From assembly GCA_963422465.1 (NCBI GenBank), contig OY730169.1:5394001-5458000 (forward strand): 64,000 nt of DNA, given 5' to 3'. Origin of the DNA: Lichina pygmaea (Eukaryota; Ascomycota; Lichinomycetes; Lichinales; Lichinaceae). This document shows positions 11,540 to 63,631 of the stretch, in pieces. The notes beneath the pieces were generated by a model, which had not been told where the DNA came from, did not search any database, and was given only the letters and a program-made list of their open reading frames with translations. Numbering within the stretch: position 1 is the first letter of the stretch; every line of letters starts with the position of its first letter. A program made the position numbers and the translations under genes.

Positions 11540-12028
11540 TCAGGCGCTGGCCGTCGGATCGATGACCGTCCGCTGAGGAAGGTCGACGTCGATGGGCGAG
11601 ACGGGGCTCGGCGAAACGTCGCCGCTCGCCGCGGGCAGATGCCGCTCCGTGAGCGAACGCTCCGTGGCAGGACGGTCGGCAATGTCGCGCTTGCGGGCCG
11701 AGCTCCGGAGCGCCGTGATCATGTGGTCCTTGTCGTCGAGTCGGGCCCGCAGATCGGCAATCTCGTTGTCTTTCTCGAGCAGCACGGCGTTGACGTCGAC
11801 CTCGTCGCTCGCTCCACCGCCACCGCCACCGCCGCTGTCACCGCTGAGGTTGTTGAGCTTGTGCGTGGGCGAAAAGGCGCGCGAGATGCGCGAGTGGCTG
11901 GACCGACGGGCCTGCAGCAGGCGCTTCTCCAAAGTCGTGATGTAGCGGTTCTTGTCCGACAGATTGGCCTGCAGGGCCCGCACCTGGGTCGCCAGCGAGG
12001 CCGTGCCGTCGCCGTACTCGCCGACCGA

Positions 12029-12071
<43 letters not shown>

Positions 12072-14692
12072 GGACCGGGCTCGCCCACGAACGTGGCCGA
12101 GAGCGGCGCCGAGGCGGAGCCCGTCGAAGCGGCCCGGCCCAGCACTTCGCCGTTCGGCCCGACGATGGAGCGCGTCGTCGTCGTCGTCGTCGTCGTCGAC
12201 GACGATCGAGCCGAGACGGGCGACATCGGCGTATCCGTCTGGTGGCGCGGCACGGCGCCGTAGGCGCCCAGCGTCAGCAGGTGGCTCCCGCCAGCGTTGA
12301 CGCCGGTCGACCTGGAGCACAGGATCAGACGGTTGAGGTGCTCGATCCGCTCCTTGAGCGCCGTCCGGGCGAGCTGCATCTCGAGCATCTGTTCCTCGTG
12401 ACGCTGCGTCACCTCCTTCTCGCGCAGGCGCTCATCCTCCTCGCGCTTCTCCTTGGCCTGGGTCTCGAGCTGGTGCCGCAGCCCCTGGATCTCCATGCGG
12501 TACCGATCCAGCAAGGCGCGGCTGGCGGCGTCGCCGCCGGCGCCGGCGCCGCCAAAGGCCTCCTCGGCCCGCTTCGCGTGGCTCACGATGTTGTTCTTGG
12601 CTCGGGCCGCGAACTTGAGGGTGTTGAGGGTCTCGGCCGTGTGGGCGCCGGCGGCGGCGCTGCTCCCGTTGGCGCCGACCTGGATCGTGCACAGGATGCT
12701 GATGAGCGAGTTGCCCGAGAGGGCCGGTTGCAGCAGACGGGTCAGCTTGCTGTCGCGGTACGGCAGGTGTTGGCCGTCCTTGTCGCCGCCGCCGCCCTTT
12801 CCGTTCCTGTCCTTGGTGCCGGACAGCCTCGCGATGACGGTGCCGAGCGTGAGCAGGCTCTTGTTGATGTGAGCGCCTTCCTGGCGGCGCTCCTTGCTCT
12901 CGGCAGCCCGCTCGGAGCCGGCGAGGTCGATGAGGCTCAAGGTCGAGACGCGCACGCCGCCGGGGACCAGGGCCGCTCGCTTGCTCTCGCGGCCGGTCTG
13001 GGCCAGCTGCCGTTCGCGGCTCTCGACGACGATCTGGACGACGGCGTGGCTGCGCGAGCTGCGCACGTTGTACTGGGTGCTGCTCGTCCGGCGCGCGAGG
13101 TCGCCGCGGGCGATGACGCGCAGCAGCTGCGTCGGGCTCTGCACGATCTCCTCCTTGAGCGGGCTCGCGTAGACGCCGCGCTTGCCGTCCTCGCGCAGCT
13201 TGATCTCCTCCTGCTGCTGCTGCTGCTGCTGCTGCGCCGCGGCCGCGGCGCCGCCGTTGTGGCCGAAGCCCGACGTGACGGACACCGACAGGAGATCGTA
13301 GATCTTCTCGTTGTAGATCTCGAGGTAGCTGACCCGAAGCAGGAACTCCCGGTTCGGCGTCTCCCGGATGTAGGAGAAGATGTCGGTGATGGCGAGCGGG
13401 ATGACGCCGGGCGACGAGGCCGTGCCCTGCATCGAGAAGGTCTTGCCGGTGCCGGTCATGCCGTAGGCGAAGACGGTGCCGTGATAGCCCTCCATGACGC
13501 GGCGTACCAACCGCTTGGCGCAGGAGTCGTAGACCTTGGCGTTCTTGTCCTGCTGGGCGAAGACGTGGTCTGGGAGGGGAGGCACGTCAGCGATCCGACA
13601 TCCATCGCGACTCGGCGCTTCGACAGTCTCGACCGTCCGAAAGGACGCGGGCGAGGGGGTGGTCGCGTTACCGTATCCGTAGGTCCCGCCCTCCTTTCCG
13701 CGGTAGGCGATGACGGACCTGCGCCCGTCCACGAGCCACTCGCCGTCGGCCCGGGCGTTCTCGCCGTTGGCGTCGGGCCGGACGCGGACGCTGACGACGA
13801 CGTTCCCCTTGCCGTCCTTGGGTCGAGGATCGGACGTCCGTTCGGCCGACGGGCCTCGGGCGGCGTTGTCGCCCGAATCCTCAAAGGTCGTCGCCGTCGT
13901 CGAGTCGGACTCGTCCACGGACAAGCACGGGCTCGGCGGACGCGACTGGAGGCTGGAGCGGGCGTCGGAGAAGCGGGAGGCTGGCCCGGTGGACATGGAT
14001 CGTCGGCCGGCGGGGCCGGCGGGGCCGGCGGGGCCGTCGGACGTCTTGCTCGCCGCAGCGGCGGAGGCGGCCAGGTTCGAGGTGCTCCCGACGCGACCGC
14101 CGCCGCTTCTCTTGAGCCGCGAGACCGTCCTCACCGGGATCACAGGCCCTTCCCTCGCGTCGTGGCCCGGCGTCGCGGCCGGAAGGTAGATGTTGCCGGA
14201 CGACAGCGGCGAGATGAGCAGGTTGGCCTGCCGCCTCGCGGCCTTCGGAGGTTGGGGAAAGGCGGCGAGGCTGACGGATCGCCTCACGTCCCTGGCGGCG
14301 GCCACGGATCCGGCCGCGGATCCGGCCTTCGAAGGTCCGTCCGACCGTGACTTGGTCACGGACGAGGAAAGCGTGGGCGACGACGGCACCGCGTCGTTGT
14401 TGGCGGCCGGATCCGACGTCGCGCGCACCGAGGGCGACATGCCGCGCGGCCGGCGCAGGCCCGACGGCGACACCTCGTCGCTCGGGGACGGTCGGGGCAG
14501 CGAGGTCGTCATGGCGGCGTTGGCGGCCGAGGCGGTGATGATGGAGATCATGGTCGAGTGGGGGTCCTTGGACGACCAGACGAGGCTTCTGCGGCGAGCC
14601 TTCGACGATGGCAACGGGGGCAGAGCCGTGGTCGGGGGGCCCAGAGCCGGTCGCGAAGACGCGATGGGAATTGCCGTCGCCGCCGCCATCAT
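11540..14692 (-). CDS. kipA: Kinesin-7 family motor (KipA/Kip2-like)
   Basis: Proposed exons are 14692-13672 and 13569-11540, giving 1016 residues. The 102 nt intron is divisible by three and open, but its removal gives GYDHVF, the normal motor sequence. A Ser/Pro-rich N-terminus of about 295 residues precedes the motor. Motifs are VVVSVRVRP (near 298-306), P-loop GMTGTGKT (377-384), switch I NVRSSRSHAV and switch II LIDLAGSE. The block SKLTRLLQPALSGNS follows. The EGYHGTVFAYGMTGTGKTFSMQG wording is close to fungal KipA, a plus-end motor that carries polarity and microtubule-tip factors. A polyGln run sits in the motor and a 14-Asp run in the tail, and the tail has predicted coiled coils. The gene has a G24 run 10-33 nt upstream of its ATG. 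Confidence 0.88.
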
Positions 14693-18271: not shown

Positions 18272-19553
18272 TCAACGAGCCTTCGAGAAGTCGAGTTTCC
18301 GAGCGATCTTCGAGCCCCGAGAATCGTCCGCGTCGCCGCCACGTCGCTTGAGATCGTCTCCCATCCGGTCTACGCCACCTCCCTTCTTGGGAAGGTCTTC
18401 TTTCCGCGTCGGGTGCGGCTCTGCTCTCCACCACCCGTGCTCGAGCACCTGTCTTGCCGTCGGCCGTTTCCTGGGATCGAGGGACAGGGTCGACATCAAC
18501 AGCTCGACCCCCAGAGGGCCTGCGCTGCCGAAGAGACCGCTGTAGTACTCCTTGCCTTGCACGGGCCGAACTGCGTTCTGGCCCAGTGCTACGTAGTCCG
18601 GGAGCTTGGACACGCCCGACCAATTGGCTTCCGTCGGTGTTCCGACGGCCTGGCAGATGAGATCCAGCTGGTGCACGTCGGTGTTACCCGGCAGGAAGGG
18701 CGTCCGCAGGATGAGCTCGGCGAAGACGACCCCCATCGACCAGACGTCGACGGCGCCCGAGTAGTGCCGCGCGCCGAAGAGAAGCTCTGGCGGGCGGTAC
18801 CACCGCGTGATCACCTGATGCGTCATGGCCGCGTACGGGTCCGAGAAAGACCGGGCCAGACCGAAATCCGCCAGTTTGACCTCGCCGTCCGCCGCCAGGA
18901 GCAAGTTGTTCGGCTTGATGTCGCGATGTAGGATGAAGCTCTCGTGGCAGAACCACACGGCTCGCCCGAGCATGCCCATCCACGTCTTGACGTCCGCCGC
19001 ACCGTAACGGACTCCGTCAATGTCCCGAATCAGCTGCTCGAGGTCGCCTAGCGGAAGGAACTCCAGCACCAGGTTGAGGTTCTGGTTCTTGGATGAGAAG
19101 ACGGAGTGCAGCGCGATGATGTTTGGATGGGATAGTTCCTGCAGGTACTTGACTTCACGGATGGCATCCATCGTGAGGCCATCGCGGTAGTCTGCGATGA
19201 CCTTGATCTTCTTTATCGCCACCTTCTTGCTTGGGTCCGCCCTCAGATGACCGAGATAGACGATGGCGTAGGTACCCTCGCCGAGCTTCTTGTCTGTGTT
19301 CCGAGATCGGCTGAGCATCGAGGGGAGACGCAGCATGCGCAGACGGAGGGAGCTGGGTGGAGGTACCTTTCACATACTTGCGCTTGGTGTCCTCATTCAG
19401 CTGCTCTGCCAGCTCTTGATCCCCATGACCGCTTGAAGGCTGCCCGGCTGCTTCGGTCTGCGATGTGGCAGGCGGAGCGGCGGCGAGCTTGGCCTTCGAT
19501 CTCTTGACGGTGGCGTCTGGAGCCGGTGGTGGGATCGCTGGAGACACCGCCAT
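18272..19553 (-). CDS. KIN28: CDK7/Kin28 cyclin-dependent kinase of TFIIH
   Basis: Proposed exons are 19553-19367 and 19293-18272, giving 402 residues. The 73 nt GTACCT...CACAG intron joins KYVK to DKKLGEGTYA. The kinase phosphorylates the RNA polymerase II C-terminal domain within TFIIH and can act as a CDK-activating kinase. Visible motifs are GEGTYAIV (67-74), VAIKK, ILHRDIKPNN (HRD 185-187), ADFGLA (DFG 205-207) and an activation loop with MTHQVITRWYRPPELL (Thr about 220). This THQVxTRWY loop is diagnostic of the CDK7 branch. The N-terminus is a ~55-residue Ala/Pro/Lys-rich extension, common in fungal orthologues. The C-terminus ends in KIARKLDF. A TTG nine bases upstream is in frame, but the ATG is chosen. 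The gene is divergent from mS41. Confidence 0.93.
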
Positions 19554-50715: not shown

Positions 50716-52107
50716 ATGGCTCCCAAGAAGAAAAAACCCACCTCTTCAGAAAGTAACACCAGAGCTACACCAGCTATACTCTCCCAACCAGCTTCCAGTC
50801 TGCCTAGCACCCAGTCCAGCTCTCCTACCCTCCAACCAGCTCCCCAGAATGACTACAAACTAGTAGACTCCTGGATCAAAACCCAACCAGTCCCAGAATC
50901 TATTCTGAAAAGCTGGGAAAATATCAAAAAGAACTCCTTCTCTACAGAAGCCCAGTCTAGCTCTACTGGCCTCACTAACAGAATCTTCCAGGAGCTGGAG
51001 AATATCAACAAGCGGCTGGACAAACAAGAAGCCAAGCCATCATATGCCCAGGCTGTCCAAAAATCTATTCCAGCACAAATCCCTCTACCTGCAAGAATTC
51101 TCAAAGAAGTTCTTGTACATCCTGGTATCCAGCCACCTGACATGGCTAATAGAACTCATATCCAGCTTTTCCAGGCTCTTCAAGACAGACTACCCAGCCC
51201 CTACAACAAGCAGGTCAGAGCAGTAAGGGAACTTCCTTCAGGGGATATTCTTATTAACACAGAAAGCCAAGAGACTAAAGTCTTCCTAGAGAAAAACCCT
51301 GCCTGGGTATCAGCTATCTTCACAAAGGAAGCAACCATCCAGTCCAAGAGATTCCCAGTTCTGATCCATGGAGTCAGAACAGAAGATATCCAACCTGAAG
51401 ACCTGGAGAAAACCTGCCAGATAATCCAGAACAGCAACCCATCTCTGAGCAAACAAATCACCATCCTGAGAGCCTACTGGTCTAAGAAGGCTATAGCTCA
51501 AAAGAAGCCAGTTACCTCTCTCCACCTGGATCTGGCTACCCCTGAACAAGCCAATCTTTTGATTGAGAGTGGGCTAGTGCTGGGGCACAGGATGCATGAA
51601 GCAGAACCTTTCCTGGCAGACACAGTCATTGCACAATGTTTCAAGTGCTTTGGCTATGGGCACCAAGCACACTTCTGCAAGAACAAAGCTGTGTGTGGTG
51701 CCTGTGGAGGCCAGCATGAAAGGAGAGCCTGCCAAGTTCCTGAACAGCTTCTCAAGCCAAAATGCTGCAACTGCAGAGGAGCTCACCCAACCTGGGCCAG
51801 TGTCTGTCCAGTACGCCAGGAAGCAGCCAAGAAGGCAAGAGAAGCATGGAACACACGCCCAGGAAAATATGAGATCCCAACAGCTACCTCTGTTCCAGCT
51901 CTACAACCTCCCCCAGTTATGTCTTTCCCTCTCTCTCAGTCTCTACCAGGAGGGAAAAAACGTAAAACAGCTGAGCTAAGCAGAAGCTCAGAGCGACTCA
52001 GAGGTGCACTCCCAGAAGTGCAAATTCTTTCTTCAAGATCAGCCAACTCTGGAGGAAAGCTACCAGCTAACTCCTTCAAGATCTTTGATGCTGAGATGTC
52101 TGCATGA
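50716..52107 (+). CDS. LINE ORF1 (Gag-like, zinc knuckles)
   Basis: An intact 463-residue frame. The N-terminus is basic and Ser/Pro-rich (MAPKKKKPTSSESN), and the middle resembles fungal LINE ORF1 nucleic-acid-binding domains. The C-terminal third has three Cys/His knuckles: CFKCFGYGHQAHFC, CGACGGQHERRAC and CCNCRGAHPTWASVC. ORF1 proteins coat LINE RNA and help the ribonucleoprotein reach the nucleus. The stop overlaps the ORF2 start as ATGA (52104-52107), pointing to coupled reinitiation. No nonsense mutation is present, unlike ORF2. Confidence 0.88.
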   Translation: MAPKKKKPTSSESNTRATPAILSQPASSLPSTQSSSPTLQPAPQNDYKLVDSWIKTQPVPESILKSWENIKKNSFSTEAQSSSTGLTNRIFQELENINKRLDKQEAKPSYAQAVQKSIPAQIPLPARILKEVLVHPGIQPPDMANRTHIQLFQALQDRLPSPYNKQVRAVRELPSGDILINTESQETKVFLEKNPAWVSAIFTKEATIQSKRFPVLIHGVRTEDIQPEDLEKTCQIIQNSNPSLSKQITILRAYWSKKAIAQKKPVTSLHLDLATPEQANLLIESGLVLGHRMHEAEPFLADTVIAQCFKCFGYGHQAHFCKNKAVCGACGGQHERRACQVPEQLLKPKCCNCRGAHPTWASVCPVRQEAAKKAREAWNTRPGKYEIPTATSVPALQPPPVMSFPLSQSLPGGKKRKTAELSRSSERLRGALPEVQILSSRSANSGGKLPANSFKIFDAEMSA

Positions 52108-55024
52108 AAGACACAAAGCTGACACTTCTCCAGTATAATGTGCAAAAAAGCCAATCAGTCCAAGAGCTACTGCTAGCAACCTCAGCTCTCCAAGAGGTAG
52201 ACATTATTGCACTTCAAGAGCCCTGGAAAAACCCTCACCTAGAAACAAGCACTTCAACTGTTTTCTCTTCCTTTCTTCCTCTCTACTGTTCAGAGATTGG
52301 CAGAACACTTTTTCTTATTAATAAAAATCTGAAACTCTCTTCTCTTCATCCTACCTTCTGGAATAAAGACTTTGTTTCTCTTGAAATCTACTTGGAAAAC
52401 TCTCCTACTTCTCTTTGGGTACATAATCTCTACTTCACCCCATCAAGTCAAGAAAACTACACAGAGGCATCAGAAGCTCTTCTCTGTTTACTCCAAAATG
52501 CTTTACAAGAACAAGGACAACATATTCTTCTCACAGACTCAAATCTTCACCACCCAGACTGGTCAAAGAAAAGAAGACTGTACTCTGAGACTGCAAACAA
52601 GTTTCAAGACCTAATGAAAGATTTAAATCTGGATTTAGCTATTGCACCTTTCACCCCTACCAGAGCAAGATCTCTTTCTGAAAAACCATGTTCTGCTATT
52701 GATCTGTTTTTTATTTCTTCTTCTCTTTCTAACTCTCTGATTTTCTCCAAAGTGGCTCTTCAGTTCTTTCATGAGTCTGACCACAGACCTGTACTAACCT
52801 GCCTGGACCTGGATCCTCCAAGGAAAATCTGGAAACCAGAAAGAAACTGGAGAACACTGGACTCAAACCTTGCAAGAGTAGAGTGTGAGAAGCTACACCT
52901 GCCCTTCCACTTCCAAGACAAATATGAAGTGGATGAGTACTTGGAGTATCTTGACAACTTTCTCCAAGAAATAGCAAGCAAATCCACACAGCTCCAGAAG
53001 CAATCTGGCCACTCAGTCCCCTGGTGGAATCAAGAGATCCAAAACAAGGTTAAAGAGGAAAGAAGAGTAAGAAGAAAAGTGCAAAAAAGACAAGCAAGTC
53101 AAGAGGAACTTGAGCAAGCAACTAAGCTCAAGAAAAAGGCAGTCAGAGATGGAAAACAGAACACTTTCAGACACCAAATCCATGAGCTGGCCAGCTCTTC
53201 AAAGTTCTGGAAGCTTGCAAAGTGGGGAAGGTCCAAAGCCAACAAGACTCCTGATCTTCCTCTGGTTCCTGACCTGGAAACACAAGAAGGAATAGCCAAA
53301 ACCTTTGAGGAAAAGACTAAAGCCTTCTCACAGCAGTTCTTTCCAAAAGCTCTAGTTCCAGAACCAGGCTCAGAAAGCTCCCAGACTATCTCTGAGATAC
53401 AGCTCTCCCAGGAGGTAACATGTGAAGAAGTGGAGCAAATTCTGGCCAAGAAGAAACCTTTCACAGCAGGAGGGAGAGATAAGCTGCCAAATGGATTTCT
53501 GAGAGCTCTGGGGCCTAGGTTCTGCCAAGCTCTAGCTATTCTGACTTCAACATGCTGGAAACTGGAGTACTTCCCTGAAAGATTTAAGAGTGCAAAAACA
53601 GTCTGCTTGAGGAAATCTGGCAAGGGAACCTACAATCAAGCTAAAGCCTGGCGCCCTATAGCTCTGCTAAACACAACAGGCAAGCTGATGGAAGCTATTG
53701 CTGCAGCCAGACTAAGCAAGATAGCAGAAGAAGCTGGACTATTGCCAGATATCCAGATGGGCTTTAGGAAAGGAAGATCCACAGAAGCAGCACTTTTCCT
53801 TCTAACCTCCCAAGTGGAAAAAGTCTGGAAGGAAGGCATGGTTGCATCCCTACTCTCACTGGATATCTCAGGAGCCTATGACAGAGTTCTCCCCAAGATA
53901 CTACAGCAAATTCTGAAAAGAAAAGGAATACCTGCCTGGCTAGCTTCCTGGATCTACTCCTTCTGTGATAAGCGCTCTACCACTCTTGTCTTTGATGATT
54001 CTGAGTCTTGTTCAATTCCTATTCATTGTGGAGTTCCTCAAGGTTCTCTATTATCCCCTATTCTTTTTCTATTCTACATTTCTGAATTGCATGAGACTGT
54101 GCATACTCCCTCTTCTGGTGTATCTGCCCTGGGGTTTGCAGATGATACAAATCTGCTTGCTTTTGGTCACTCCTTGAAAAGTAACCTTCTGAAGTTAAAG
54201 AACACACACCTCAAATGTCTATCATGGGCTGCAAGACATGGAATAGTCTTCTCTTCTGAGAAATATGAAATACTTCATTTTTCCAGAAGAAGATCAGACA
54301 ATCTTCAGCTCAAGCTCAGACTGGGGAATGTGATTCTCAAACCAAAAGAAGAAGTGTGAGTACTTGGAGTGTACCTAGATGCAAAGCTCCACTGGCACAA
54401 ACACCAGAGGATTATTCTTCAAAAAGCACAGAAAGCACTCTCTTCTCTTTCTAGAACTTCCTATTCTACTTGGGGCTTTCCAGTTCACACATCACGTCTG
54501 GTGTACACTGCTATACTGAGATCTCTACTGAGCTATGCAGTGGGGATCTGGTTTAACCCTCTAAGAAAATTCTCCAATATCTCTTCTCTTGTTTCATTTC
54601 AAAACAGATGTCTAAGACTTATTGGGGGTGCCTTCAAAGCCACTCCTTCTTTTCTATTAGAGAGTGAGCTTTTTCTTCTACCTCTAGACCTATACTTTAA
54701 ATTTCGCACTGCCTGTTTTCTTTCTTCTATTCAAAACTCCCCTCTCAAATACTTTCTTGACAGTATCTTTTCCACTATTTCCAGCTATGCCTCTCTCTTG
54801 AAGAAACCTTTAAAGGAATCCTCAACTATCTCTCCTAAGTGGAAACTCACTTGGTTAAGTCAAATAACTACTAACCAGGCTAGTTCAAAGAAAGAACTAA
54901 AAAAGCTCTTTACTAAAGAGTGGGAAGACCAATAGGAAGAGAAGAAAAGAAGAAGCTATCCAGGCTGGCAGACTTTCTGTCAAAAGCCACACAAAAACAA
55001 TCTGAAGCTCTACAAAGAGTTACA

Positions 55025-55136
55025 GGCCTGCAACGACTTGAACCTCCACGTGGTGCAGGCTGGGAACCTCGGGGCAGTCGATGGCGGGCGGCTTCCCAGG
55101 CTGCTCGTAGTCGCTGCACCAAGAGCTAATCAAGTC
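55025..55136 (+). ncRNA. HDV-like self-cleaving ribozyme candidate
   Basis: Hand folding gives the full HDV double pseudoknot. P1 is GGCCTGC (55025-55031) with GCAGGCT (55055-55061), including the G-U first pair. P2 is GACTTGA (55035-55041) with TCAAGTC (55130-55136). P3 is ACC (55042-55044) with GGT (55052-55054), closing the seven-base loop TCCACGT. The joining strand GGGAAC starts at 55062. P4 is long and interrupted (68-77 with 114-125, plus inner pairs). J4/2 is CTAA, with C55126 as the expected catalytic base. Cleavage would fall just before 55025, exactly the element's 5' boundary. HDV-like ribozymes are known at the 5' ends of several non-LTR retrotransposons. Activity is not shown here. 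Confidence 0.75.
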
Positions 55137-56141
55137 ACCGGTCGAGCTGCTGGTGTTGCGGAGCGACGGGCCACCGGAGGTGTCGCGCAGGCACCCTGGA
55201 CGCCCCCGTGAAACAGCTACAGCAGAACAGAGGACTGCGACCAAGCTTGGGAGATGAAAACCACCTGACAGACGACTACCGTGTACGCTACAGCCTGAAG
55301 CCAGCCCCACAGCTGGTGGATGTGAAGTCTAGGCGTCTGATAGGGCACCTCTGGAGTAGTCGAGAGGAGTTCTCGTCACGTCACCCTCCTAGCAGAGTCT
55401 CCAGCTAACGCGTGAGGATCTGCTAGGGGGGGAGTGGCCTTGGCACCGCGGCGTTGTTAATCGAACACGGACCACCTGTTAAAGAAGGAGAGTGGTCGTA
55501 CAAGGAGACGTCGCCGCTCCAGTGCCTAAGGGCCGTGTGATAGCCAAAGTGCTGGCTTGATGGTTTTGCCTAAGGCCTTGCCACGAAGTCTCTTCGTACA
55601 ATCCACAATCTGGGGCCAGGGGACTGGGTTATCCAGTGGGCCAACAGGTGCAACCGGGGCCCCACAGGCGACAGCGGACCAAGGAGAACTCCTCCCTACT
55701 TGGTTAGTGGGCTGGAAAGGCAGCCCTGCAGGTGCTGGCACGGCCTGCAGGGTCCGTAAGGCCTGCGAGGCATGGTCGGCCTTTGTACAAGAGATCTGCG
55801 AAGGTAACGTGAAACAGTTAACAACTGCGAGGCGTGGCATATAATGGCAGTGACGGAGGTAGGGCCTGGGCCTACTACAAGACTGTCTATATGGCCCGAG
55901 AGAACGGATGCGCATGCCGGTTCGTACGGAGTGCAGGCTTAGGCTGCAAACAACAAGCTCAGGGAGTAAACTACAGTTGGAGCGTGGGCTCTGGGCTGGT
56001 GACCCAGCGCTCCGAAGCAGGATCCCAGGGGTGAGCACGTACGGCGGAGTGCAAGAGACCTCGGGACTGTGGGAAAGTGTGGTAGAGACCCTGTGGGGGG
56101 GTGCCAACTCTACACTATGTTCTGGCATAGTACGACTGTGG

Positions 56142-56554
56142 TCCCTACCCCACTATGTGTGTGTGGCCAAGCAGAAGAAACTGCAAAACATATCACCTCT
56201 TCATGCTCTCTTTATTCAAGACAAAGACAACAAGTCTCTTTTAATCCCCAAGACTTCACCACTATTATTTCAAACCCAGAGCTACTACAGAAGTTCTTGT
56301 ACTGGTTTATGTCTTTGAAAAGACTAAACCAGTTTAATCTAGCTTTCAAACTCCACTATTCCCAATCCAATACCTAGATTCTCTTCTCTTACCAGAAACT
56401 TCAAGATTCCTTTTGTTACATTCCCTAGTCACACCCTGCCTTCAGTTTTTATCCCTTCAAAGGTTTTCTGAAGGAGTTCACTATTAGCTAGAAGATCTGC
56501 ATGGCTGTAAAGCTACTACCAGTGTAAGAATCAAATAAAAAATAAAATAAAAAA
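56142..56554 (+). repeat. Copy of LINE 3' end within the chimeric element
   Basis: Direct repeat of 56654-57067, the host LINE's own 3' end, starting TCCCTACCCCACTATG and ending in AATAAA-rich sequence. It still encodes CVCGQAEETAKHITSSC, but without any upstream frame. Confidence 0.92.
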
Positions 56555-57362
56555 ACAAAGAGTTACAGAAAGCTGAGGTAAGTCTGCTACTGCAAATCAG
56601 GACTGGAAGAATTGGTCTGGCAAGTTTTCTTTTCAGAGCTGGAGTTCCTGACTTCCCTACCCCACTATGTGTGTGTGGCCAAGCAGAAGAAACTGCAAAA
56701 CATATCACCTCTTCATGCTCTCTTTATTCAAGACAAAGACAACAAGTCTCTTTTAATCCCCAAGACTTCACCACTATTATTTCAAACCCAGAGCTACTAC
56801 AAAAGTTCTTGTACTGGTTTATGTTTTTGAAAAGACTAAACCAGTTTAATCTAGCTTTCAAACTCCACTATTCCCAATCCAATACCTAGATTCTCTTCTC
56901 TTACCAGAAACCTCAAGATTCCTTTTGTTACATTCCCTAGTCACACCCTGCCTTCAGTTTTTATCCCTTCAAAGGTTTTCTGAAGAAGTTCACTATTAGC
57001 TAGAAGATCTGCATGGCTGTAAAGCTACTACCAGTGTAAGAATCAAATAAAAAAAAATAAAAATAAAATGTGTCCTGCATCGAGACTGGTGAGATTGTCT
57101 TGATGCTTCATGCATGCTGCGTCGAGCCACCCGTGTTTGTCTCGACAGTCACGTGACTCCCTGTTGGTTGGTCACTTGACTCCACGGTGGTCTCTTTCCT
57201 GGCCCAAGGCCTGATGTCTATAAATGAGTGGCTTCCCTTTCCAGGGATCGTAACACTACCTTCCTCTCTTTCATTCATCGTCTTGATGAATTCTTGAGTA
57301 TGTCTGCAAAATCACGTGCCTCTGTTTACCGAAAGCAGCTGTCGGTCCAGATTCGTGATCGC

Positions 57363-57960: not shown

Positions 57961-58314
57961 ATCACAACTTCCTGTCACTTGCTCCGTGTGACTTCTGTGC
58001 TTTGAATCGCAAGCCCTGTTTCCGAATGTCTGACAACAACGATAAATTGAAGTGTGCTGAATGCACTCGTCGTGGGAAGTCCTGTGTGTCGCTTTCTTGG
58101 GAGTCGCTGAACATGACCCAGGATAACCTTCGTGATGATCTGGCTGCCGACGAAGCCAAGCGGGATGCTCTTGTTGAGCAGCTTACCGAGCTGCAGGCTT
58201 GTGTATCCCGGAAGCGGAAAGTTCTCGAAGGGGCCGAGGGTCGGGCGAAGAAGAAGCTCCAATGCCTTGTTGCTGAGATGGAGGCGGATGGCGAGGACTT
58301 GTCGGCGACAGTCA

Positions 58315-58581
58315 TGTGACAAGGCAATGGCAGAGCAGAACTCAAGCCTAACTGATTCGGTAACCTTGACCTGACTTGGCTTGAGACTTGAGACTTGGAT
58401 TGATGTACAAGACGAAAGACAAGGAAGGAAAAGTGAAAAGAAGAAGAGAAGAAGCTGGGGGAGCAGGAGAAGTTCTTATAGGCAGGGGATACGGCGGAGC
58501 AAACAGGCAACAGTGCAGATGGAACTTCCCGGCAAGGTGCGTGACTTGTGCCAGATATGCAACTGGGCCAGAACTGTGACA
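58315..58581 (-). repeat. 3' LTR of the Gypsy element
   Basis: 267 bp, TGTGACAAGG to ACTGTGACA on the + strand. Same family as the solo LTR at 49598-49870. Confidence 0.92.
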
Positions 58582-61500
58582 TTACCCCCCTCCTTCACAT
58601 GGTGAACTCCTGTGAGTCTCAGGCCGCTCGTGGGCGTAGTTCCGTGGCTGTGGTTTCCTTGGGTATTTCTCATGGAAGTTGTAGATGGTGTCTTTGGCGT
58701 TGTCAAGATACTCAATAGACTCTTCAGTGGCATCTTCAATTGGCTATCCGGACTATTTGACCAGGTACTTGAACTTCTGTCGAGACATTGCTGGCTTGGA
58801 GTCAAGGATTTCTTCAACCTGGAACTCTTCATCTGTGTCTTGACCAATGACAGGGCCAGGGTGTTCATTTGATTGGCCAGGGATAGGATTAGCAGGTGTC
58901 AGACGTAGAAGGGAAACGTGAAAGACAGAGTGGATCTTGAGAGTGTGTGGAAGCTCCAGATGGCAGGCATGGCTTCCGACTGTCTTCAACACCTTGAATA
59001 GTCCAATCCACTTGTTGTCAAGCTTTTTGCATAGGCAGTGTGTCCTGATGTTCTTGGTATTCAGCCAAACAAGATCTCCAGTTTGATAAGACAGTGACAG
59101 GACTTGATGCAAATTAGTGGTGTGAGCTTGAGCTTCCTGGGATAGTTGGAGTTCAGCTTGCAACTGCTCCAGAATCTGCGTCATTTCTCCAGAGATTTCC
59201 ATAGCATCTTGGTTGCAGGCTTCACTTGTGGGTGTGATGCTGAGCTGTGGATGGAACCCTTTGTTGGCAAAGAACAGTGACATGCCAGAGGAATCAGACT
59301 GGGAGTTGTTCTGCGTGAACTCTGCCAGAGGAAGCTATTGGACCCAGTCATCTTGGAGATAGTTGACATAGGATCTCAGGTAGCGTTCAAGTTCCTGATT
59401 CTCTTGTTCTGTCTGACTATCTGTCTCTGGGTGGTGTCCTGAGGATAGTTGTAGCATGACATCAAGATGGGCACAGAGTGCTTTCCAGAATAAGCTGACA
59501 AACTGACCTCCTCTGTCTGAGACAATACTCCTGGGCAAGCCATGGGTACAGACAACAAACTGGATGAACATCTGGACAAGATGCGAGGTTGTCATCTCAG
59601 CACATGGCACAAAGTGGTGTTCTTTGGTGAGATAGTCAGTGATGACCCAGATGTGCTTGGCACCAGGGAAGCAGGTATCTCTTGACTTGGGCAAGTCAGT
59701 AATGAAATCCATAGCCAGATCCTACCAACATTGCTGAGGCATGGGAAGAGACAGCAGCTCTCCTTGGCGATCACAGGCAGGCTTTGCTTGAGAGCAGACA
59801 TGACAATTCCTGATGTACTGCTGTATGATGTTCACTATCTTTGGCCAATAGTACCAACAAGACAGAAGACTGTGGGTCTTGGCAATCCCAGTGTGGCCAG
59901 CCATTGCTTGGTCATGGGCTTCTTGGAACAGGTGTAGGTGTAGCTTATTGTTCTCAGGGATCCAGAGTCAGTTCTTGTAGAAGAGACAGTTATTTTCCAA
60001 GCTGCAGTCTGAGAGAGACACTTCTTGACTGTGCCTGACACCATCCCTTAGCATCTGTGACACTGTTGCCACTGGATCACCTTCAGCAAGGTTGTTATAG
60101 GCAGCTTGGATGATGTCTGAAAGAGGTGCAGTATCAGGTTCAGTGTCAACTGGTGCAGCTTCTGAACATCTCAGGATCTGGATAAGCTTGACTTGAACCT
60201 CTGAATGTGCAAGATTCTTGGGCTTGAGGATAACTTGCTCCATGAAGTCTTGACAGGGATCACTGTCTGACAGGAGGTCTTGGGAACATCAAGTGAGGGC
60301 GTCAGCCTTGCACTGACTGCCTGGACAGTAGCTGATCTTGAAATTGAAGTGTGACAAGAACTTGCTCCAACAGGCTTGACAGTGGGAAAGGCACTTTGAC
60401 AACATGAAGTACTCCAAGTTCTTGTGATCAGAGATCACCTTGACAGGTTCTGGAGATCCTTCAAGCTCTGCTCACTATTCTTCAAAGGCACAGACAATTG
60501 CCAGCAACTCTTTGTCGTAGATCTCGTAGTTGCATTCTGCTGGCAGGTGGCAGCATGACAAGAAGGCAACAGGGTGTAGAACTCCTTCATGGTCTGGCTG
60601 TGACAGGACAGCACCAGAGACGTAGTCAGAAGTGTCAGTCTCAACAACACACTCCTTCTCTGGATCAAAGTGCTGCAGGATGAGTGCAGTGCTGAACAAC
60701 TTCTTGATACTTTCAAACAAGCGCTGCTCTGGGGTTTCCCACTTGAAGGCAACATTCTTGTTGGTCAGAGCTGTGAGTGGGGATGCAAGCTTGGCAAAGT
60801 CTTTGATGAACTGGCAGTAGAAGTTTGCAAAGACAATGAAGCTCTGCACTTCCTTGAGACTGGCAGGAGACTTCCACTCCTTGATGGCATCAGTCTTGGC
60901 TGGGTCCATGCTCACAGATCCGGGTCAGCTGTCTTCAGTGGCAGACTGAATGATGAGGCCAAGGTACTTGACTTGATACACTTCAAAGTCACACTTGGAG
61001 ATGTCAACTTGCAGGCTTGCATCTTGTAGTCGACTGAGAACAAGCTTGATGTACTTCCGGTGTTCCTTGAGTGTCTGACTGTAGACAAGGATGTTGTCCA
61101 CATAGGCAGTGCCAAAGACATCAAGGATGTCAGGTCCCAAAACATTATTGATGTAGTTCTGGAATGTGCTTGGAGTATTGGCAAGACCAAAGGGTATGAC
61201 AAGGTATTCGTAGAGGCCTGAGCATGTGCGGAACGCAGTCTTCCATTCTTCACCTTCCTTCATCTGGATACAGTTGGAGGCACCAACAATGTCAAGCTTG
61301 GTGTACCACACAGCTTTGCAAAGCTGGTCCAACATCTCCCAGATCAGTGGCAGGGAGTAACAGTTCTTGATAGTGATGGTGTTGAGTGCTCTGTAGTCTA
61401 CACAGAAACACAATCCACCTTCTAGCTTCTTGACAAAGAGGACTGGTGCAGCAGCAGGTGATGAAGATGCTTGAATGAAGCTCTTGTTCAGGTTCTCTGT

Positions 61501-63296
61501 CAGGTACTTCTTGAGAACTTCAAGTTCTTCTCTGCTCATGCTGTACAGAGGTCCAGAGGGTGCCTGGGTTCCTGGTTCTATCTTGATCTTGTGGTCAACT
61601 CCTGGGTGTAGAGGAGGAAGCTTGGCAGTGTCATCCTTGCTGAAGATGTCCAGGAACTTGTAGTACTGAGCAGGGAGAAGTGTGGCAGGATCCACACACT
61701 TCTTTGGCTTCAACACCTGCTCAATGTCTCTCAGAGAAACACTGAACACCTGGTGATCTGGCTTGGCAGCAAGGAGAGAAAATACAGCAGCATTGATGGG
61801 GATTAGCGTGGCAGAAAGAGGCTTGGGATCCTGAGACTTTCCAGCAGATGTCTTGGCTTCAAGATCCAAAGAGATTGGATAGCCATTGTTTGACTTGAGG
61901 TATGCAGATCAGCAGTGATCTGACTTGAACATGATTGAGGTGTTTGTCCAATCAATGTGTGGCCTGTGCTTCTGGAGCCATGGCATCCCCAGAATCACAT
62001 TATAGTGAAGACCAGGAGACACAAAAAGAGAGACTTCCTCCTGGTGCACGCCATGTGCTGTGGTCATGATTGTCTTGGCAAGATGTGTGGTTTGCGACGT
62101 CTTGCCATCAAACAATCACAATGTGCGTGGGTAGGGGAGAGGTTCTTGGTGAAGAGATTGCGCAAAGAAAGCACCAATGCAGCCAAATGCTGAACAGCCA
62201 GAGTCAATAAAAGTATTGCACTTGAATTTCCCATCTAGGATACAAGGAAGAAACAAGCACTTGCTGTCCAACTGCTGGTCTGGAGACAGATAGCCAACAT
62301 GGAGATCCTTTTCATGTCCTTGGGCACAACGATGACCAAGGACTACTTGTTTTCCGACTCTGGAGTAGTCTCAACAGTGGCAGACTTGGTGGTGGTTGTG
62401 GTGGTGGCAACAACAGGCATGCTTTTCACTGGACAGAAGGTTGAGACATGACCTTGGTTCCCACAGTAGAAGCAGAGGCCTTTGCTTCAGTGATGTTCTT
62501 GCTCTTCTGGCATCAGCTTAGAGTGGCTGAGATCCATGGTAGGACTTGGTGGCTGTGGCGTGAAGGCTGGCTTGATGAACCCTGGACACAGAACTGAAGC
62601 GCCTGACTGTGGAACTGAGGCTTGGGTGGGAGGTGCTTGACGTGGATGGTGAGAGTTGGCAGAAGTGGCACGCAACTGGTTGTCCTGCAGCTGGCATTCC
62701 TCAACAAGCTTCTGATAGCTGATGTCCTTGAGGTTGATGCTGACAAGCTGCTTGGCAAGCTCTTCAGAGACAGTGCATTGAAGATGGCACTTCAAGGCCT
62801 TGTTGTTGAAGCCTGTGCATGGAGCATACTGATTGAACTCTGTGAAGAACTCAGCAAAGGAACAGTTGGCCTGACACAAGGTGATGAGCTTCCTCTGAGC
62901 TAGGAACTCTGGGTCTGGGTCGGAGGTGTTCCGGAGATCTTGGATGATGTTGTGCCAGTCAATGTACTGGCCAGCCGTGATCTTAGCTGAGATGTAGGAC
63001 TGCGCAGTGCCAGTCGTGCGTGAAAAGACGTACGCAATCTGCGATGTTTCTGTGGGGTACCAGTCAGTGTTGAGTGTCATCTTGAGTGACAGTGACATGA
63101 TGAAGCTCTCAAGCTTCTCATACATGATTTCCGTGTTTCCACCATCACCACTGAAGATCTCTGGGTCAGCAGTGCATTCAGACTTGGACTTGGGAGTGGT
63201 GTTGGTAGCTTGAATTCACATGAACTCTGCAAACATGTTGTGAAGGAACTTGTCATTTCCAGCAACTGGCATAGCTTGGTCTGGTTGTTGAGACAT
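58582..63296 (-). pseudogene. Decayed gag-pol of the Gypsy element
   Basis: Begins at an ATG at 63296. Gag carries a zinc knuckle CFYCGNQGHVSTFC (about 62475-62430), reached only through a TGA. The protease keeps its DSG active-site triplet and ILGMPW. The reverse transcriptase (61869-60925) has the catalytic box changed to YVDN where the family has two adjacent Asp. RNase H (60915-60475) and an integrase with an HHCC zinc finger and D, D, E positions follow. The chromodomain starts EEFQVEEIL and contains two TAG codons at Trp positions. The final TAA (58584-58582) abuts the 3' LTR. At least eight nonsense codons occur, mostly explained by C-to-T or G-to-A transitions, so no polyprotein can be made. 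Confidence 0.88.
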
Positions 63297-63354
63297 GACA
63301 AGAACGTGAACATGGCTTGGTGAAGTGTGTTATAGTTGGGTAGGTCTTTTGTAG

Positions 63355-63631
63355 TGTGACAAGGCAATAGCAGAGCAGAACTCAAGCCTAACTGATTCAG
63401 TAACCTTGACCTGACTTGGCTTGAGACTTGAGACTTGGATTGATGTACAAGATGAAAGACAAGGAAGGAAGAAAAAGAGAAAAGAAGAAGAGAAGAAGCT
63501 GGGGGAGCAGGAGAAGTTCTTATAGGCAGGGGATCAGGCAACAGTGGAGCAAGTAGGCAACAGTGCAGATGGAACTTCCCGGCAAGGTGCGTGACTTGTG
63601 CCAGATATGCAACTGGGCCAGAACTGTGACA
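63355..63631 (-). repeat. 5' LTR of the Gypsy element
   Basis: 277 bp, TGTGACAAGG to ACTGTGACA on the + strand. It differs from the 3' LTR in a purine-rich stretch and a short duplicated GGCAACAGT(G/A)GAGCAA segment. Confidence 0.92.

Follow-up and report, generated by a model that had tools for sequence, protein, structure and literature searches.

A putative HDV-like ribozyme at the 5' end of LINE-joined copies of a ~1.1-kb non-coding RNA in Lichina pygmaea

The closest described counterpart of the element reported here comes from Magnaporthe, which belongs to a fungal class other than that of the present host. In MINE, the Magnaporthe element, full-length copies of the non-coding RNA WEIRD (1113 nt) sit on 5'-truncated LINEs at many sites; WEIRD is described as highly expressed and mostly joined to MGL, and no solo copy of it was reported from what was an incomplete genome (PMC2104539). 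The present element has the same build, with an RNA half of ~1117 nt, and it shares with MINE what are read as double template jumps and a preference for a C-rich motif at the LINE breakpoints (PMC2104539). The reported target duplications are 10–20 bp in MINE and 10–13 nt here, and 31 MINEs compare with at least 239 ribozyme cores in the present genome (PMC2104539). The likeness to WEIRD is one of anatomy, the sequence comparison consisting of three published primers: two WEIRD primers and one MINE primer (PMC3978060) gave no match above shuffled primers in two copies of the RNA half, here called the body. The word "ribozyme" is absent from the MINE paper (PMC2104539). Why the RNA half of MINE-type chimeras should be complete and sharply bounded at its 5' end was a puzzle left open in 2007; a ribozyme is the mechanism that we offer for it, and if one makes that 5' end here, the same may hold for WEIRD. 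In mammalian chimeras of L1 with U6 or other RNAs, template switching is likewise reported to have placed a full-length cellular RNA 5' of a truncated LINE (PMC2104539). The U6 of those chimeras is the product of a known snRNA gene, whereas no gene for the body described here was found among 146 copies. To our knowledge, U6 carries no self-cleaving ribozyme.

HDV-like ribozymes are themselves familiar at the 5' ends of retroelements. In Drosophila, R2 and the non-autonomous R2/R1 hybrid SIDEs carry one, the hybrids combining it with the 3' end of another LINE and showing 14-bp duplications (PMC3414825), and in R2 the type of 5' junction correlates with where cleavage takes place (PMC3774820). 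The ribozyme of the R2/R1 SIDE stems from R2 and insertion is at the R1 rDNA site (PMC3414825), whereas the 1.1-kb RNA of the present element bears no relation to the LINE, to which it is joined at many sites. NARTc and related short trypanosomatid elements are, like this one, non-autonomous and headed by an HDV-like ribozyme; unlike it, they are described as truncated versions of their own LINE, and an internal promoter lies within the same 77 nt (PMC4035085). The HDV class is also known from fungi: an account of 2017 gives 230 variant representatives from 26 species, partly overlapping 11 earlier ones, and cleavage was demonstrated for two (PMC5640933). Typical of those variants are a C-G pair where cleavage occurs, a loop E within P4 and an additional base separating P2 from P3 (PMC5640933); the ribozyme described below has G-U at the cleavage site, and its P2 and P3 follow each other without such a base. 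The original prediction, which knew of no such ribozyme in a non-autonomous fungal element of this kind, is thus to be narrowed: 5' HDV-like ribozymes of non-autonomous and hybrid elements are known outside fungi, and what is left of it is the fungal MINE-like combination. Among the open-access matches listed, with subscription papers (including the first MINE paper) outside their scope, there was no description of an HDV-like ribozyme in a fungal MINE-like chimera.

The locus lies in a 64,000-nucleotide stretch of DNA, analysed as a whole and referred to as the window. Around 50.7–57.07 kb of it lies a LINE that encodes endonuclease and RT domains, and a 1530-bp element (55025–56554) is inserted into the 3' region of this LINE. 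The parts are as follows.

50716–54935, plus strand: target LINE, also of the partner family (the start given is that of ORF1)
50716–52107, plus strand: LINE ORF1
52104–54359, plus strand: LINE ORF2, with endonuclease and RT domains
54369–54935, plus strand: further LINE frame
55012–55024, plus strand: 5' target-site duplication, 13 bp, ACAAAGAGTTACA
55025–56141, plus strand: body, copy of a non-coding RNA of ~1117 nt (perhaps 1119 if it ends in GGCC)
56142–56554, plus strand: 5'-truncated 3' tail of the neighbouring LINE family, joined to the body
56555–56567, plus strand: 3' copy of the target-site duplication, ACAAAGAGTTACA
56568–57069, plus strand: remaining 3' end of the target LINE beyond the insertion

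The final 413 bp of the element are a copy of the LINE tail found from 56654 on (98.5% identity over 412 nt), and the first 1117 bp have no match to the LINE. The chimeric retroelement that had been proposed is therefore borne out as a body plus a 5'-truncated LINE tail, with one correction: its 5' part is the copy of a separate ~1117-nt RNA that has fixed ends and many LINE junctions. The 13-bp duplication that had been taken to define the boundary is real, and an insertion-free version of the target site is present in the LINE part of copy L092. Because a 14th duplication base, G, also belongs to the element, the boundary is ambiguous by one base at this locus; it is resolved to G55025, the predicted cleavage site, since other copies start there.

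The full HDV double pseudoknot, P1.1 included, can be drawn by direct reading of 55025–55136, and every part of the fold first proposed was found again on redrawing.

55025–55136, plus strand: HDV-like ribozyme, nested double pseudoknot, predicted cleavage 55024/55025
55025–55031 with 55055–55061, plus strand: P1, 7 bp, first pair G1-U37
55035–55041 with 55130–55136, plus strand: P2, 7 bp
55042–55044 with 55052–55054, plus strand: P3, 3 bp
55045–55051, plus strand: L3, TCCACGT
55062–55067, plus strand: J1.1/4, GGGAAC, whose first two G can pair with the CC of L3 as P1.1
55068–55123, plus strand: P4 with its distal hairpin
55124–55129, plus strand: J4/2, AGCTAA
55126, plus strand: putative catalytic C in J4/2

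The catalytic role of C55126 is putative and assigned by analogy with HDV. The CpG sites of the window copy have decayed and its P4 contains one C-A mismatch (55070-55121), for which reasons this particular ribozyme may cleave poorly. A descriptor of the HDV fold, composed with the target site already known, matched the window on both strands only at 55025/55126; it gave no match in 100 dinucleotide shuffles of the 64-kb plus strand (6.4 Mb) and none in 3000 shuffles of the body. Scores from the Rfam HDV model stayed under its cut-off in the three copies scored. With Infernal, which aligned the model end to end, 55023–55139 scored 27.6 bits (E 0.13), and two further copies reached 39.1 (L010) and 43.9 bits (L009); all three lie below the 50-bit gathering score of RF00094, which is a database cut-off rather than a defining property, and the whole window has no match to Rfam at the gathering threshold. 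In a genome-wide search with the same model, for which 86 of 1614 candidates were scored, L009 alone passed E 0.001 (E 6e-4) and none of the 86 exceeded the RF00094 cut-off; 14 control genomes gave no match. As evidence against the ribozyme, the original prediction had named a covariance score below threshold together with a lack of compensatory changes in other copies: the score is indeed under the Rfam threshold, but paired changes between copies do occur, as described below.

Genome-wide searches covered the 32.47-Mb assembly (8 contigs). The ribozyme core, taken as a 28-base pattern with up to three mismatches, occurs at 239 genomic places, and the reversed pattern has no match in the genome. 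Bodies that lack the 5' end are under-counted because copies were located via the ribozyme sequence. Close comparison was made of 63 copies, 55 of them full length, with L002–L008 left out as shorter stretches of L010–L016. As had been anticipated, most copies start at the same G as the window copy: G1 is the first base in 58 of the 63 (GGCCTGC in 56, GGTCTGC in 2), three read AGCCTGC, their first base being either mutated or lost with a start at the next base, and two start at base 3. Every start therefore falls within two bases of the predicted cleavage site, and 58 are exact. No two of the 63 upstream flanks (20 of them only ~20 nt long) resemble each other, and no copy runs 5' of the position of 55025 into shared sequence, an extension that had been named as counter-evidence. 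With these starts and unrelated flanks, the copies end at the predicted cleavage site without any common upstream sequence. T and A are preferred at bases -14 and -13 (35 and 33 of 63), as expected with a nick site ~13 bp away. Abutting target duplications of 10–13 nt were found in 9 of the 43 copies scanned; the other 34 had none of at least 10 nt, in part because the scan mostly reached ~1.3–1.5 kb downstream or the tail is interrupted.

The bodies fall into subfamily A (1117 nt) and subfamily B (often 1124 nt), which are ~80–84% identical, and further diverged lineages exist, L061 among them. CpG transitions make up 519 of 726 substitutions from the majority in A and 567 of 1244 in B, a pattern that suggests decay after insertion, with a single master sequence behind A and at least two behind B. 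No reading frame is conserved between one A and one B copy. A long minus-strand frame in A, of 200 aa in the window and of 204 codons between stops in L010, had brought a delta-antigen-like protein to mind; that candidate was rejected because the frame is not kept in the B copy L060, where the longest minus-strand frames are 108, 77 and 78. The predicted fold of two copies is branched, not rod-like, and ~3 SD more stable than 15 dinucleotide shuffles of each; the minus-strand folds deviate similarly (-3.8 and -2.5), so fold stability does not tell the strand. Rfam families beyond HDV gave nothing convincing in the body, and a second ribozyme on the minus strand was not found with Rfam in L009 or L010. 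A head-to-tail body junction, searched genome-wide as an exact pattern with 0 to 6 bases between, was met nowhere, which leaves multimeric templates without DNA support, and the exact ribozyme pattern has no match in IMG/VR contigs.

Comparison of the ribozymes used 40 distinct copies, 39 pairs and thus 1560 base-pair cells; 41 had been aligned, and the second ribozyme of L041, cut off inside P2, was left out. Standard pairs occupy 96.9% of the cells, against 27–38% with slid partners. All P1 cells are paired, and P2 is the least well kept helix at 92.1%. All 40 copies keep the C of J4/2 (position 102), the CC of L3 and the GG of J1.1/4 unchanged. Two pairs divide the subfamilies, with A-U prevailing in one subfamily and G-C in the other: P2 pair 16-107 (A-U 24, G-C 12, G-U 1, unpaired 3) and distal P4 pair 62-82 (A-U 25, G-C 10, G-U 4, unpaired 1). 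The covariation score, the paired-cell share and the count of double-change cells were all above 500 of 500 shuffles. Two other measures were not above control: 185 of 500 shuffles had at least as many doubly changed pairs as the five observed, and the number of pair types did not exceed the shuffles either (457/500). Since subfamily A varies mainly by CpG decay, the comparative evidence comes from few independent lineages, and the double change in P2 of the window copy may be coincidence. Between A and B the ribozyme shows 11 majority differences in 112 nt, fewer than most body stretches. L032 (1004–1332) and L061 are diverged body lineages with an altered P4 in the ribozyme; in L032 the body match ends after 347 nt.

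The 3' end was read from 100 further copies, 91 of which contain the body end; the nine left out comprise one that lies inside the body, one in LINE sequence of the opposite strand and otherwise unmatched cases. The body stops at the same GG in 90 of the 91 junctions and two bases short in the remaining one. LINE sequence follows in 89 and a second, 5'-truncated body fused to LINE in two. A same-sense LINE was detected by translated search within the first 400 nt of flank in all 55 full-length bodies, using references that came partly from other flanks of the same family (the weakest match given is L027, E 2e-6); at the nucleotide level the first LINE match of L020, L027 and L043 lies 117–588 nt from the junction. 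No solo body without a LINE was present in the 146 copies examined, of at least 239. Among the copies examined, the body is seen only upstream of 5'-truncated LINE pieces, and no LINE was seen with this ribozyme as its own 5' end. Two apparent solo copies, L069 and L104, were rejected when longer stretches revealed LINE sequence. For twelve flanks unmatched to the first LINE (L014, L015, L018, L024, L047, L054–L058, L061, L068), the source gene or other RNAs were considered; both readings were dropped when pairwise comparison, translation and further matches identified a second, G+C-rich LINE family or other LINE pieces. The body thus has at least two LINE families as partners. The second one is found downstream of the body in L014, L015, L018, L024 and L047, and it ends in a TCAATCAATCAA tail in L014 and L047.

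The fixed end of the body is met by scattered LINE positions. The 52 copies whose partner is the first LINE family show 40 distinct breakpoints, 33 of them single and seven shared out among 19 copies; the commonest, 4959, accounts for four of the 52 and for two among the further junctions. The recurrent positions on the joined reference (4959, 4258, 5223, 6111, 6112, 5149 and 3269) are either hot spots or re-amplified chimeras. C occupies the first place after the body in 71 of 99 junctions and the second in 70 of 99. Among nine copies whose first three bases are unlike the LINE reference, five still have CC; because CC recurs even there, the RNA may end ..GGCC, and short homology at CC may guide the jump. 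Double junctions occur in both orders of the subfamilies, namely full A followed by B from base 46 and LINE, and full B followed by A from base 211 and LINE.

L111 101–2293, body's strand: triple chimera, two body subfamilies in tandem plus LINE
L112 107–2137, body's strand: triple chimera, two body subfamilies in tandem plus LINE

The explanation that we favor, and regard as probable, is that a ribozyme-headed RNA of ~1117 nt has been captured and copied through LINE RT jumps. Under this model, 55025–56141 would have arisen by reverse transcription of a structured non-coding RNA that is separate from the LINE. The HDV-like ribozyme in its first 112 nt would cut a precursor at G55025 and so create the 5' end of the free RNA, whose 3' end is likewise constant (..CUGUGG or perhaps ..GGCC). 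At a nicked target, the LINE RT would often quit its LINE RNA template at scattered sites, preferably at CC, jump to the 3' end of the free RNA and copy it through to the ribozyme-made 5' end, after which the chimera would be sealed with a ~13-bp target duplication. Serial jumps between free RNAs could yield the triple chimeras, and these, one of them broken inside the ribozyme at base 46, fit an RT that stalls on structured RNA and jumps again. The HDV-compatible pairing, the fixed ends, the scattered LINE breakpoints and the duplications are results at the level of the sequence; that the ribozyme cleaves, that a free RNA exists and is abundant, and that the RT jumps between templates are what we infer.

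That the fold is an HDV look-alike without catalytic role that happens to head a repeat seems very improbable to us. Such a reading would fit the scores below the Rfam threshold and the putative status of the ribozyme activity, but it leaves the empty 6.4 Mb of shuffled window, the paired subfamily changes with an invariant core C, L3 CC and GG, and the agreement of cleavage site and copy start (58 of 63 exact, 63 of 63 within two bases) to accident. A self-standing non-autonomous element, comparable to the R2/R1 SIDEs, would be transcribed as a chimera, trimmed by its ribozyme and re-inserted whole via the LINE tail. The seven positions common to 19 of 52 copies, most often 4959, are what such re-insertion might leave, and MINE transcripts were reported in Magnaporthe (PMC2104539). 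On the other hand, tail-driven re-insertion of units would preserve one junction, and 40 breakpoints in 52 copies (33 single) with at least two LINE partners call for repeated fresh joining, so that we think this course unlikely.

Within the favored reading, capture of a free RNA by a jumping LINE RT, the source of that RNA has to be weighed as well. The simplest source of a discrete, abundant RNA is a chromosomal non-coding RNA gene, located among the remaining copies or in an assembly gap, with the ribozyme trimming its own transcript or read-through from upstream. This is our sober guess, although we give it slightly less than an even chance: subfamily A scatters round one sequence, mostly by CpG decay, as if from one master, but no such gene is present in 146 of at least 239 copies, and WEIRD too was described without one, from an incomplete genome (PMC2104539). 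Unlikely, in our view, is a viroid-like or satellite RNA that replicates outside the chromosomes, whose ribozyme would cut multimers to unit length and whose genomic copies would be LINE-captured fossils. Unit ends fixed on both sides, the lack of solo copies in 146 and the several diverged RNA lineages speak for it, as do the high expression of WEIRD without a solo gene in its incomplete genome (PMC2104539) and the fungal viroid-like RNAs reported with ribozymes (PMC13343976). Against it stand the absence of an exact head-to-tail junction genome-wide, a predicted fold that is branched rather than rod-like, and the lack of a second, minus-strand ribozyme in two copies compared with Rfam; moreover, the check for a solo gene covered 146 of the 239 places. 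A fuller version, which we hold to be just as unlikely, is a ~1.1-kb ribozyme-bearing replicon in several diverged lineages, fossilised in hundreds of unit-length copies through LINE template jumps; WEIRD would then be a further replicon of this sort.

In any case, an RNA whose ends are precise but whose gene was not found among 146 copies raises the question of RNA replicons in filamentous fungi, and the copies form a large natural record of LINE RT template jumping in which donor and acceptor sites are resolved to the base. As for the surroundings of the locus, two direct repeats of ~275 bp near 58316 and 63356 were seen by eye to bracket a minus-strand polyprotein-like stretch (58314–63630); close to the LINE on its downstream side there is thus probably an LTR retrotransposon. 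One host gene on the minus strand of the window encodes a kinesin (11540–14692), for which the best match with a named source, among the matches listed, is from Watsoniomyces obsoletus (61%), an ascomycete of the class Lichinomycetes; a protein without a name comes nearer (82% over 65% of the query). Another minus-strand host gene encodes a protein kinase (18272–19336).
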